From contig NZ_LFLS01000004.1 of NCBI RefSeq assembly GCF_001189915.1, forward strand, positions 1-64,000: a stretch of 64,000 nucleotides of DNA, written 5' to 3'. Position 1 is the stretch's first letter. Every line of letters starts with the position of its first letter. Positions 45,073 through 49,562 of the stretch are shown piece after piece. This DNA is from Herbaspirillum autotrophicum (lineage in GTDB: Bacteria > Pseudomonadota > Gammaproteobacteria > Burkholderiales > Burkholderiaceae_D). A model generated the notes under the pieces. That model saw only the letters and a list, made by a program, of their open reading frames with translations. It did not search any database and was not told where the DNA came from. A program made the translations under genes and the position numbers.

Positions 45073-46331
45073 AGGCGACCTCCGCGCATCAAGACCCGGT
45101 TTTCATAATCGATGCGCAACAAGATCGCCAGACCGACGCAATTGAGCAGCACACCGGAACCGCCGTAGCTCATCAACGGCAAGGTCAATCCCTTGGTCGG
45201 CAGCAAGCCCAGATTGACGCCCATGTTGATGAAGGTCTGCACCCCGATCCAGATGCCGATACCCTTGGCCACCAGTCCGGCAAATGTCAGATCCAGCGCA
45301 ATTGCCTGACGACCGATTTCAAATGCGTGCTTGATCAGCCAGTAGAACAACAGCACCACTACCAGCACACCGGCAAAACCCAACTCTTCACCGATCACCG
45401 CCAGCAAGAAGTCGGTATGCGCTTCCGGCAGATAGTGCAATTTCTCGACACTGCCGCCGAGCCCGACGCCAAACAACTCGCCGCGCCCGAAGGCAATCAG
45501 CGAGTGCGATAACTGGTAAGCCTTGCCGAGGGCGTTTTCTTCCACCCAAGGGTTGAGGTAAGCAAAAATCCGTTCCCGACGCCATGGCGACAACACGATC
45601 ACCAGCGAGAAAATCCCTACCAGCGTGGCGCCGATGCCGCCAAACCAGACGCCATTGATACCGCCCAAAAACAAGATACCCATGGCGATGCAAACGATCA
45701 CGCCGAACGCGCCGAGGTCAGGTTCCAGCAGCAACAGCAAACCGACCACGCCGACCGCCAGTGTCATCGGCATGAAACCCTTGGTCAGCTTGTGCATCAC
45801 TTCTTGTTTGCGCACCGTGTAATCGGCGGCGTACAAGACGATGAACAGCTTCATCAATTCCGACGGTTGCAAGTTGAATACCTTGAACGACAACCAGCGC
45901 TTGGCGCCATTGACGCCCTTGCCGACGCCCGGAATCAACACCATGGCCAACAGAATCAGCGTGCCGACAAACAGATACGGCGCCCATTTTTGCCAGGTTT
46001 CGATCTTGATCCGGAACACCAGCAAACTCACCACCAGCGACACGCCGATGAACATTGCCTGCCGCACCAGAAAGTGCGAGGTCTTGTAGTTGGCGTACTT
46101 GGGCGAATCGGGCAATGCAATCGACGCCGAATACACCATGACCATGCCGAACAACATCAACAACAGCACCACCCACACCAGCGGCTGGTCGTACTCCATC
46201 ATTTTGGAGCGCTGTTCGAAACCGGTGGTCCCCTTCATGCCATTGCGCTGCGGGTCGCGGGATACCGTAAACGGCGACTGCGCCGCTTTCAGCCCGAACC
46301 ATGCACCAATCGAAGGGAACGAAAATTTCAT
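45069..46331 (-). CDS. ftsW: Septal peptidoglycan polymerase FtsW (SEDS)
   Basis: Lipid II glycosyltransferase working with FtsI. 420 residues with about ten transmembrane segments and the SEDS blocks [17 protein letters not shown] (polymerase loop) and [13 protein letters not shown] 45-residue N-terminal tail precedes the first helix, so a start at the inner Met is possible, but the ATGA overlap with murD favours the longer form. Confidence 0.96.
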
Positions 46332-48364
46332 GCCACCACCTCACCGCGTGACAACGCCAGTTCCCGCACGGCATCAACGAATACCTGGGCCCGATGCGCA
46401 TAGTTGCGGAACATATCGAGACTGGCGCATGCCGGCGACAGCAACACTGCCTCGCCCGGCTGCGCCATCTGGCCGGCCTTTTCCACCGCTTCTTCCAATG
46501 TTGTGCAATCGATCAGGTCGATCCCGGTATCGGCAACGGCAGCGCGGATCGCCGGCGCATCGCGGCCGATCAGAAATACTGCGCGCCCGTATTTCGATAA
46601 CGGTTCCGCCAACGGCGAAAAATCCTGGCCCTTGCCGTCGCCACCGGCAATCAGCAGCAGCCGGTTTGGCTTGCCGCCATGACCGAGCCCGTTGAGGGCC
46701 GCGACGGTAGCGCCGACGTTGGTTCCTTTGCTGTCGTCGTAATATTCGACATCTTGAATCGTCGTGATCAGTTCGACCCGGTGCGGCTCGCCCGTGTATT
46801 CCCGCAAGCCATGCAACAACGGCGCCAGCGGCAAGTCGATGGCGCGGCACAGCGCCAGTGCAGCCAGCGCATTGAGGGCATTGTGCAAACCGCGGATACG
46901 CAATGCATCCACCGGCATCAGACGTTTGACCACCACCGGCAATTCCACCGGTTTTTGATCTTTCTTGCTGCGACGTTTGCCTTCCGGCTTTTCGTCATCC
47001 TCTTGCACCACCGCATTGGCCAGCCACAGCATGCCGTTTTCATCGTACAAGCCAAAGCTGTTGGCCTTGGCCGGTGCGGCCAGACCGAAACTGCTGAGCA
47101 CCGCATCGGGCGCTGCCATCTGCATGACCAGCGGATCGTCGCGATTGAGCACGCGCACGGTGCGTTCGCCGAAAATACGCGCCTTGTCAGCGGCGTAGGC
47201 TTCCATGCTGCCATGCCAGTCCAGATGGTCCTGGGTCACATTCAGCACCGTAGCGGCATCGGCCTGCAAACTGTAAGTGGCATGCAACTGGAAGCTGGAC
47301 AATTCCAGCACCCACACCTGCGGCAAGATGCCGCGATAGATTTTGGCCGGCGGTGCCGGCGGCGGTGGCGGCACAAACGTCAGCGGCGCATCATCGTCGA
47401 GCGGTGCCGGTACTGCTTCCGGCTCATCGTCAAATTCTGATTCGGGCAATGCCTCTGTAATATCTGCATCTGCTTCGGCAACCACCGTTTCCACATCAGG
47501 CTGCTCCGGCGACGGCTCTGCGAGCGCTGCCGTGGCGACCTCATGCTCGTCTGCCACCGGCTCTGCCGCTGGCGCGATTGGCGCATCCGCCTGTGCAATG
47601 TCTTCTATTGTTTCAGTGCTGGCCGTCTCGGATGTTTCCGGCAGCACCGACGTGCTGGCAGTATCAGGCGTGATCGCCAACGCTTGCGTTTTGGCTGCGG
47701 CCTCTGCTACGGCCTGCTCTTCTGCCGCAACCTGCGCTTGCAGTTCTGCGGCAGCCGCAGTTTCAGCAGCCAGCGTTTCCGCAGCCTGCGCCGCTTCCAG
47801 TGCATCCTGCTCGGCGCGCACCACTGCGTAGGCCTGATCTTCGATCAGTGCTTCGCGCAACACATCCAATGCTGCCGGGCTGATATTACCGGCGACCTTG
47901 ACGCTCAGGCCGGCGCGCTGGCACAGCATGCCGGTCAGGCTGGTCACGGTGGTCTTGCCGTTGGTGCCCGTAATCGCCAGCACTTTCGGCATGTAAGCTT
48001 GCTCGTCGCGCAAGGCGGCCAGCGCCTGCGCAAACAATTCGATTTCACCCCACAGCGGAATGCCTTTTTCGGCTGCCGCGTTTGCCAGCAATCCGAGATC
48101 GCGCTCCGGGAACAGACCGGGACTGACGGCAACGAAGTCAATCTCTGCCAGCAACCCTGCATCAAGCGGCTGGCCACCGACGAATCCGGCCTCGGGAGCC
48201 GCTGCACGCAAGGCATCCAGACGCTCGGTCAGCGTCGCTGCATCGCGGGTATCGGCAACGCGCACACGGGCACCGCAGTGGACCAGCCACCGCGCCATCG
48301 CCAGACCGGATTCACCGAGTCCGAGTACCAATGCGTGCTTGTTTGCGTAATTCATCAATTTCAT
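46328..48364 (-). CDS. murD: UDP-N-acetylmuramoyl-L-alanine--D-glutamate ligase with large central insertion
   Basis: Adds D-Glu to UDP-MurNAc-L-Ala. MurD features are all present: [13 protein letters not shown] (N-terminal), [11 protein letters not shown]-loop at 131-140, [10 protein letters not shown] at 351-360, [23 protein letters not shown] and the C-terminal ligand domain (DDSKGTN, GGDGKG). At 678 residues it is about 200 longer than usual. Residues about 171-345 (DNA 47330-47850) are an insertion rich in Ala, Glu, Asp and Pro, ending in a proline run, placed between [10 protein letters not shown] and [11 protein letters not shown] second, lysine-rich insertion of about 20 residues is at 454-474. 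Frame and flanking motifs are intact, so it is not a frameshift. Translation may start at Met1 or Met4. Confidence 0.95.
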
Positions 48365-48392
48365 TCAAATAAACCAACAACAACCATGCCGG

Positions 48393-49562
48393 TCAACGCA
48401 GCTTCAGCGTCGACAAACCGAACAACACCAGCATCATGGTGATAATCCAGAACCGCACTACCACTTGCGTTTCTTTCCAACCTTTTTGTTCATAGTGATG
48501 GTGCAGGGGCGCCATCAACAAAATCCGCTTGCCGGTGCCATAGCGCTTTTTCGTGAATTTGAAATACGCCACCTGCAACATCACCGACAAGGTTTCCACC
48601 ACGAAAATGCCGCCCATGATGAACAGCACGACTTCTTGTCGCACGATCACGGCGATGGTGCCCAGTGCGCCGCCAAGTGCCAGTGCGCCGACGTCACCCA
48701 TGAATACTTGCGCCGGATAGGCGTTGTACCAGAGGAAAGCCAGCCCGGCACCGGCCATCGCGCCGCAGAAAATCAGCAATTCGCCGGCGCCCGGAATATG
48801 CGGGATAAACAGATACTTGGCGTAGTTGGCGCTACCGGTCAGATACGCAAAAATACCCAGCGCCGAACCGACCAGCACCGTTGGCATGATTGCCAGACCA
48901 TCGAGGCCGTCGGTCAAATTCACGGCATTACTGGTGCCGACAATCACGAAATACGTCAGTGCAATGAAACCCCACACGCCGAGCGGATAGCTGATGGTCT
49001 TGAAGAACGGTACGATCAGATCGGCCTTCGGCGGCAAATCCATGCTGAAACCGGACTGCACCCAGCTCACAAACAATTCCAGCACCTTCATGTTGGTGCC
49101 TTCGGAGACCGAAAACGCCAGATAGAACGCGGCCACCAGACCGATGATCGATTGCCAGAAAAACTTGTCGCGCGAACGCATGCCGTTCGGGTCCTTGTAG
49201 ACCACCTTGCGGTAATCGTCAGCCCAGCCGATGGCGCCAAAACCGAGCGTGACGATCAGCACGATCCAGACAAAACGGTTACTCAGGTCAGCCCACAGCA
49301 AGGTCGAAATACCGATACCGATCAGAATCAGCACGCCGCCCATGGTGGGGGTGCCGGACTTGATCAAATGTGTTTGCGGACCATCGGTGCGCACCGCTTG
49401 TCCGACTTTCAGACGCGTCAACATGCGGATCACGGCCGGCCCCGCAATCAGGCCGATCAGCAACGCCGTCAGCGTCGCCGATACGGCGCGAAAGGTAATG
49501 AAACCGAAAACGCGCAGGAAACTGAAATCCTGCTGAAAATTCTGCGCCAACCAAAGCAGCAT
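48393..49562 (-). CDS. mraY: Phospho-N-acetylmuramoyl-pentapeptide transferase MraY
   Basis: Makes lipid I from UDP-MurNAc-pentapeptide and undecaprenyl phosphate. 389 residues, about ten transmembrane segments; [22 protein letters not shown] and the HHHYE motif are visible. The ATG at 49560-49562 has GGAGA upstream and is one base after the murF stop. Confidence 0.97.

Follow-up and report, generated by a model that had tools for sequence, protein, structure and literature searches.

MurD, the UDP-N-acetylmuramoyl-L-alanine--D-glutamate ligase, is an essential enzyme and a well-studied drug target. The closest described structures, from Pseudomonas aeruginosa and Acinetobacter baumannii (PDB 8dp2, 7ti7), have chains of 442-446 residues, too short to accommodate an insertion, and in alignment the GN helix of the P. 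aeruginosa enzyme leads to the LELSSFQ strand with nothing inserted. A complex of unsettled architecture has been suspected for the Mur ligases, and MurD, MurE and MurF are reported not to bind one another without MreB or MurG (PMC4929429). According to a second study, MurG may scaffold a Mur complex in Bordetella, and MurE and MurF of Bordetella pertussis are fused through a ~20-residue linker (PMC6420597). The murD gene of Herbaspirillum autotrophicum, which lies in a 64,000-nucleotide stretch of contig NZ_LFLS01000004.1 (the window), resembles the Bordetella fusion as a lineage-specific change in the cytoplasmic Mur ligases and differs from it in that an insert is placed inside a domain instead of two enzymes being joined. 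We report that this MurD carries a 169-residue acidic insertion which is predicted to consist of a helical arm, a disordered loop and an ordered Pro-rich strap, and that the insertion site is a hotspot of expansion in Burkholderiales. No paper on a MurD insertion in these bacteria was found by title or abstract start among the matches listed in open-access PMC, which is not proof of absence.

The murD gene and its insertion

The initial annotation of the window had described a continuous reading frame with all MurD motifs, and this description holds. The open reading frame (ORF) is unbroken across 678 codons, and its product scores 362.7 bits against TIGR01087 (curated cut-off 211.95), the match being split in two stretches. 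The protein keeps K137, N160, E354, H380, K394, R529, D544, K546, T548, S643 and F652, which are invariant columns in a 64-sequence alignment and which we take to be the P-loop, carbamoylated Lys, Mg/ATP-binding and D-Glu-binding residues. It shows the three-domain Mur ligase fold, and structure listings obtained with the complete model as query comprised Mur ligases, pseudomurein ligases and cyanophycin synthetases. The carbamoylated Lys is given as Lys198 of E. coli MurD in a published account (PMC4816537). No second murD copy, insert-free copies included, was found in the window genome at E-values up to 0.001, the other match of that search lying inside the murE ORF (42% identity over 53 residues); because the genome has no second MurD, the protein likely retains D-glutamate-adding activity. 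Most Herbaspirillum MurDs compared start with MNY, which corresponds to codon 4 of the called ORF, and the true start may therefore lie at that codon, position 48355, within 48353-48364.

The linker from VAGN to WV (residues 157-352) comprises 196 residues compared with 27 in insert-free relatives, which leaves 169 extra residues between the helix that follows the GNIS motif and the LELSSFQL strand. This places the net insertion at residues 178-346, close to the 171-345 given by the initial annotation, and its acidic character was also described correctly, with 37 Asp/Glu against 4 Lys/Arg and a net charge of -33. The G+C content of residues 171-346 is 0.63 compared with 0.61 for the core, and 0.58 compared with 0.71 at third positions. 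Three insert segments matched no Pfam family at E-values up to 1, the window insert segment matched no PHROG at the same limit, and the insert had no other match within its own genome at E-values up to 10; a foreign domain was rejected as its source on these searches. Nothing in 46000-48700 exceeded an Rfam gathering score.

Table 1. Features of the window murD gene and of the protein that it encodes
Feature	Residues	Window positions	Strand	Basis
murD, UDP-N-acetylmuramoyl-L-alanine--D-glutamate ligase		46328..48364	(-)	678 codons; ORF and TIGR01087 score over cut-off
Net insertion (169 aa)	178-346	47327..47833	(-)	Comparison with the 27-residue linker of insert-free relatives
Predicted single helix	165-229	47678..47872	(-)	AlphaFold2 pLDDT; same helix in a sub-clade B member
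Acidic, predicted disordered stretch	232-313	47426..47671	(-)	pLDDT under 50; hypervariable middle in relatives
Pro-rich strap	323-346	47327..47398	(-)	AlphaFold2 block pLDDT; likeness to f49 strap profile
Lys/Arg-rich loop	454-474	46943..47005	(-)	Present in Burkholderiales MurDs with and without insert; outside the finding

Distribution of long linkers in Burkholderiales

Among 34 Herbaspirillum genomes searched, the linker was readable in 33 (G026 yielded only a fragment), and it was expanded to 105-268 residues in 29 and normal in four (G017, G022, G029, G030). The variation in insertion length among relatives that the initial annotation had suggested is thus present within the genus, and the sequencing or assembly error that it had raised as a possible refutation is rejected because expanded linkers recur across these genomes. 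The named records L001-L015 belong to the same genomes (15/15 linkers identical) and add no further evidence; two records titled Herbaspirillum (L019, L021) have a normal linker. A well-supported sister pair (L109/L118, support 95) combines a 105-residue linker of Glu-Pro type in one member with a normal linker in the other.

Elsewhere in the family, where lengths refer to fetched loci only, some of them picked for a long open frame, all 32 loci read in other genera fell at 27-32 residues (31 genomes; G060 twice). Linkers of 41-57 residues were found in 22/23 loci of genus g6, the exception being L127 (G222) with 31. A linker of 27 residues was present in every readable locus from other named Oxalobacteraceae and Burkholderiaceae (50/50, of 52). 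Long linkers reappeared in Aquabacterium, Roseateles, Mitsuaria, Rubrivivax and Albitalea, which we take to be of Sphaerotilaceae type and in which all 13 linkers measured 124-181 residues, although this group was defined after the lengths were known. Like the window protein, these MurDs are expanded at this site by an acidic insert, which in most of them includes a Pro-rich strap and an aromatic-xx-LPxxW ending. Their identity to the window protein over the best segment is 44-48%, compared with 63-80% for Herbaspirillum L001-L015.

A second family, f49, was represented by roughly one genome from each genus (117/120 genomes matched, 110 fetched, 105 read), and its 105 linkers divided into 33 of 80 residues or more, 5 of 40-79 and 67 under 40. 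This family is probably Comamonadaceae/Sphaerotilaceae-like, since named loci match two of its linkers exactly (Albitalea terrae L063 for L183, and L057 from a Burkholderiales metagenome-assembled genome for L164). In the order-level sample linkers were read in 12/29 fetched loci. Across the phylum, 145/150 genomes had a murD match at E-values up to 1e-40, and only G000 and G348, both Burkholderiales, had a best match that set in at profile position 152-153, within a longer frame; in four genomes (G592, G619, G637, G650) the match was broken elsewhere, and the full-length matches inspected spanned at most ~1,460 bases.

Linker length at this single site ranges from 25 to 268 residues. In a FastTree phylogeny of 257 MurD rows without the linker, which has some long branches and in which gain and loss are indistinguishable, parsimony gave at least 17 changes of the long state (80 residues or more), 8 of which are forced where branches are well supported. 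With the threshold lowered to 37 residues the counts were 23 and 14. The insertion site is thus a hotspot of expansion in Burkholderiales, with f49 as a second family bearing inserts.

Predicted arm, loop and strap

The window protein was modelled with AlphaFold2 from an alignment with 64 MurDs, giving a mean predicted local distance difference test (pLDDT) score of 84.8. In the model, the native helix is lengthened by ~52 Ala-rich residues (178-229), with block pLDDT of 96-98 for residues 171-220 and 83 for 221-230. There follow 82 residues (232-313), about half of the insert, with pLDDT under 50, after which order rises through residues 321-350 (block pLDDT 68, 91 and 96) as the strap runs into the LELSSFQL strand. 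The initial annotation had considered the whole insertion disordered; predicted disorder is present in residues 232-313, as that claim would have it, and the N-terminal third is a confidently predicted helix and the C-terminal end an ordered strap. For a sub-clade B member, whose insert is very different, the model has a helix at residues 162-229, disorder at 234-353, a small helix at 358-371 (block pLDDT 61-78) and then a Pro-rich strap, again ordered. The two models therefore agree in predicting a continuous helix of 65-68 residues, an acidic disordered region and an ordered strap, although the alignments behind them share most rows and they are not independent. A beta-alpha-beta unit of the usual topology has the end of its helix and the beginning of the next strand on the side remote from the ATP site. 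In the Rossmann-like sheet of MurD the insert would therefore emerge on the far side from the ATP pocket, and the arm probably points away from catalysis and takes no part in it. A coiled-coil dimerisation arm was also considered and is disfavoured because the arms lack amphipathic periodicity (10/10 arms).

Selective constraint was estimated as omega from close pairs, 4 in clade A and 6 in clade B, with segments bounded by alignment column, so that the figures are rough. In clade A, the arm (0.040) and the strap (0.070) were like the core (0.072) and the middle was higher (0.217); in clade B, omega was 0.080 for the strap, 0.083 for the core, 0.205 for the arm and 0.290 for the middle. On these figures the clade A arm and strap and the clade B strap appear to be constrained like the core, with a relaxed middle. 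Before the strap, all 17 clade B sequences carry a segment of NL(G/D)DFM.VSR.A(D/E)E.AL type, with departures at the first position (S in two) and the fourth (V in one). This segment, which corresponds to residues 357-373 of L104 and the same place in 16 others, is predicted to form a short helix and was not seen in clade A.

The long linkers share a composition beyond Herbaspirillum. Of the distinct linkers, 76 reach 60 residues or more, and every one of these is net negative; a Pro run was found in 61 of them, an aromatic-x2-3-LPxxW ending in 66 and both in 58. Aromatic content is low, at 1.35 Trp/Cys/Phe/Tyr per 100 residues over 92 inserts before duplicate removal. An arm of 35 or more residues free of Pro and Gly was found in 28/29 Herbaspirillum linkers, compared with 3/33 in f49 and 0/13 in the named Sphaerotilaceae-type set. 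A strap profile built from 36 of 44 f49 and Sphaerotilaceae-type straps, picked by their P..F..-type ending, was run on 22 distinct Herbaspirillum straps. Seven of these, all of clade A and including the window strap, beat nearly all of their own shuffles (0-1/300 as high, or 0-5/300 with the Pro run fixed). The window strap scored 12.0 bits (1/300 shuffles, 0/300 with the Pro run fixed), a modest score, as are the other single-strap scores, given that pooled shuffles peaked at 14.9-15.0 bits (99% at 5.8 and 8.8). The L088 strap was weaker (4.7 bits; 13/300 and 20/300 shuffles as high), and the L109 and L010 straps were not significant against their own shuffles. These scores modestly suggest a DxAPLxLxxPPP strap common to part of Herbaspirillum (clade A) and f49, for which common origin, transfer and convergence are all candidates.

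N-terminal extensions

An acidic or Pro-rich stretch was read in frame before the MurD N-domain in 9 of the 72 f49 proteins with linkers under 80 residues and in none of the 33 at 80 or more. The nine carriers (L171, L175, L177, L184, L185, L194, L198, L224, L260) have a 27-residue linker, and the stretch contains a conserved motif of AAxFVA(R/K/Q)(I/L)FA type. Long upstream frames, mostly in f49, had been considered as MraY-MurD fusions; of nine inspected, seven were read by eye as another frame of mraY and the remaining two (L175, L260) were N-terminal extensions. One f49 protein with a normal linker (L214) has an apparent acidic expansion elsewhere, before the P-loop.

Palindromes and codon repeats in the inserts

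Long palindromes form when the inserts of four f49 murD genes (L160, L164, L179, L181) are folded. The respective genomes contain 27, 45, 26 and 7 sites of the exact CCCTCTCCC/GGGAGAGGG palindrome, and among the matches listed it lay within murD itself in L164 (G487) and L179 (G461). A reversed-pattern control gave 0 sites in G461 (compared with 26) and 1 in G487 (compared with 45). In G461 and G487 the palindrome is thus a dispersed repeat read in frame within an essential gene. Rickettsia palindromic elements, which are likewise dispersed and lie in frame within coding sequence, are similar to the murD palindromes of these two f49 genomes, from which they differ in sequence and in the bacteria concerned. 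Some Herbaspirillum inserts contain tandem codon repeats, such as SDEA and GQES runs. Because palindromes occur in f49 inserts and codon repeats in Herbaspirillum inserts, the loop looks permissive and filled by more than one route. The window insert itself was attributed to neither: the palindrome has 0 copies in the window genome, the one genome of the genus searched, and only two short low-score tandem arrays were found.

The Lys-rich loop

The initial annotation had described a second, Lys-rich insertion at residues 454-474, which might contact the acidic one. The basic stretch is present in the window protein and proved to be an ordinary loop. In the 234 of 257 sequences in which it was readable (23 were not), its median length was 29 residues in 73 long-linker MurDs and 30 in 133 normal-linker MurDs, with a median net charge of +1 in both groups. 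Loop charge showed no correlation with insert length (rho -0.05, p 0.49), and loop length rose weakly with it (rho 0.18, p 0.006, uncorrected for kinship). The proposed contact between the two is not supported, as the basic loop occurs whether or not the acidic insert does and its charge is not correlated with insert length. That they evolved as a charge pair, as their opposite charges in the window and the weak rise in loop length might suggest, is hardly credible given near-equal loop lengths and charges either way.

Discussion

We tentatively favour the reading that the appendage acts as a spacer and an electrostatic tether for weak contacts with neighbouring proteins, built on an arm-loop-strap plan with the arm off the active site. 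The helix after the GNIS motif would continue as a stiff Ala-rich arm of ~52 extra residues, a ~90-residue acidic disordered loop would hang off its end, and the ordered Pro-rich strap would bring the chain back to the LELSSFQL strand. A multivalent acidic loop would thereby be held several nanometres from the enzyme, where the candidate neighbours belong to the MurG/MreB-centred cytoplasmic Mur assembly; selection would keep the arm and the strap, and in the loop it would keep charge and not sequence. This reading is preferred because the arm and strap appear to be under selection, because acidity runs throughout the long linkers and because of the N-terminal extension contrast. The initial annotation had proposed a scaffold for the cytoplasmic Mur ligases, an idea that would fit the conservation of arm and strap; the changes of state and the in-frame palindromes would fit a permissive loop too.

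Several observations weigh against the tether. Four of the 33 readable Herbaspirillum genomes do without the insert, most long inserts outside the genus have no arm, and the 12 clade B straps score like shuffles on the f49 profile. AlphaFold2 readily gives confident helices for Ala/Glu-rich sequence, and no amphipathic or heptad periodicity was found in any of the ten arm sequences (lowest p 0.086 against shuffles). The clade B arm seems less constrained on its rough omega of 0.205, the clade A pairs share members and include the window protein in none, and the linker alignment behind these estimates is gappy, with synonymous divergence (dS) above that of the core. The clade A middle, including that of the window, is hypervariable, with no conserved motif seen in the alignment. 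The N-terminal contrast is weak (Fisher p 0.054, kinship ignored). The repeated changes of linker state and the dispersed palindromes read in frame count in the same direction.

These last points are what would be expected if a permissive loop far from the active site simply takes up low-complexity codon expansions and mobile palindromes and has no specific function, selection removing only insoluble or basic variants. We regard such tolerated growth as a close rival, only somewhat less probable, and weigh the two nearly alike. The at least 8 forced changes between long and not-long states (17 by parsimony), the range of 25 to 268 residues at one site, the palindromes in f49, the SDEA and GQES repeats, the relaxed middle and the four congeners that lack the insert all speak for it, and bacterial linkers are commonly acidic and of low complexity. 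It accounts less readily for an arm (clade A) and a strap (both clades) that appear as constrained as the core, for clade A straps that resemble f49 straps beyond shuffles, and for the NL(G/D)DFM.VSR.A(D/E)E.AL segment or a near form of it in 17/17 clade B sequences. A partner-free role, in which the acidic tail would serve as an entropic bristle, maintaining the solubility of MurD or keeping nucleic acid away, agrees with the net negative charge of all 76 distinct long linkers and with their few aromatics, and would leave the ordered arm and strap and the conserved clade B helix unexplained; we consider it improbable. More doubtful still is direct regulation, whereby the insert would fold back and tune MurD turnover through autoinhibition or domain closure: the ordered strap adjoins a catalytic strand and the clade B helix at 358-371 could dock on the core, but the site probably lies opposite the ATP pocket, as judged from topology, and the basic loop shows no matching change in charge.

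A wider and rather unlikely extension of the tether is that Burkholderiales repeatedly gave MurD a localisation module, comprising an arm or none, an acidic tether and a docking strap, or elsewhere an N-terminal tether with an FVAxIFA-like helix, which would recruit MurD to the Mur assembly differently by lineage. The DxAPLxLxxPPP strap would then be one such module, transferred or re-evolved for the same docking surface. Herbaspirillum in any case offers, within one genus, natural MurDs that have the arm, tether and strap alongside short-form sisters that do not, on which control of assembly by such modules may be tested, and the insert is a tractable case of low-complexity sequence built into an essential enzyme.
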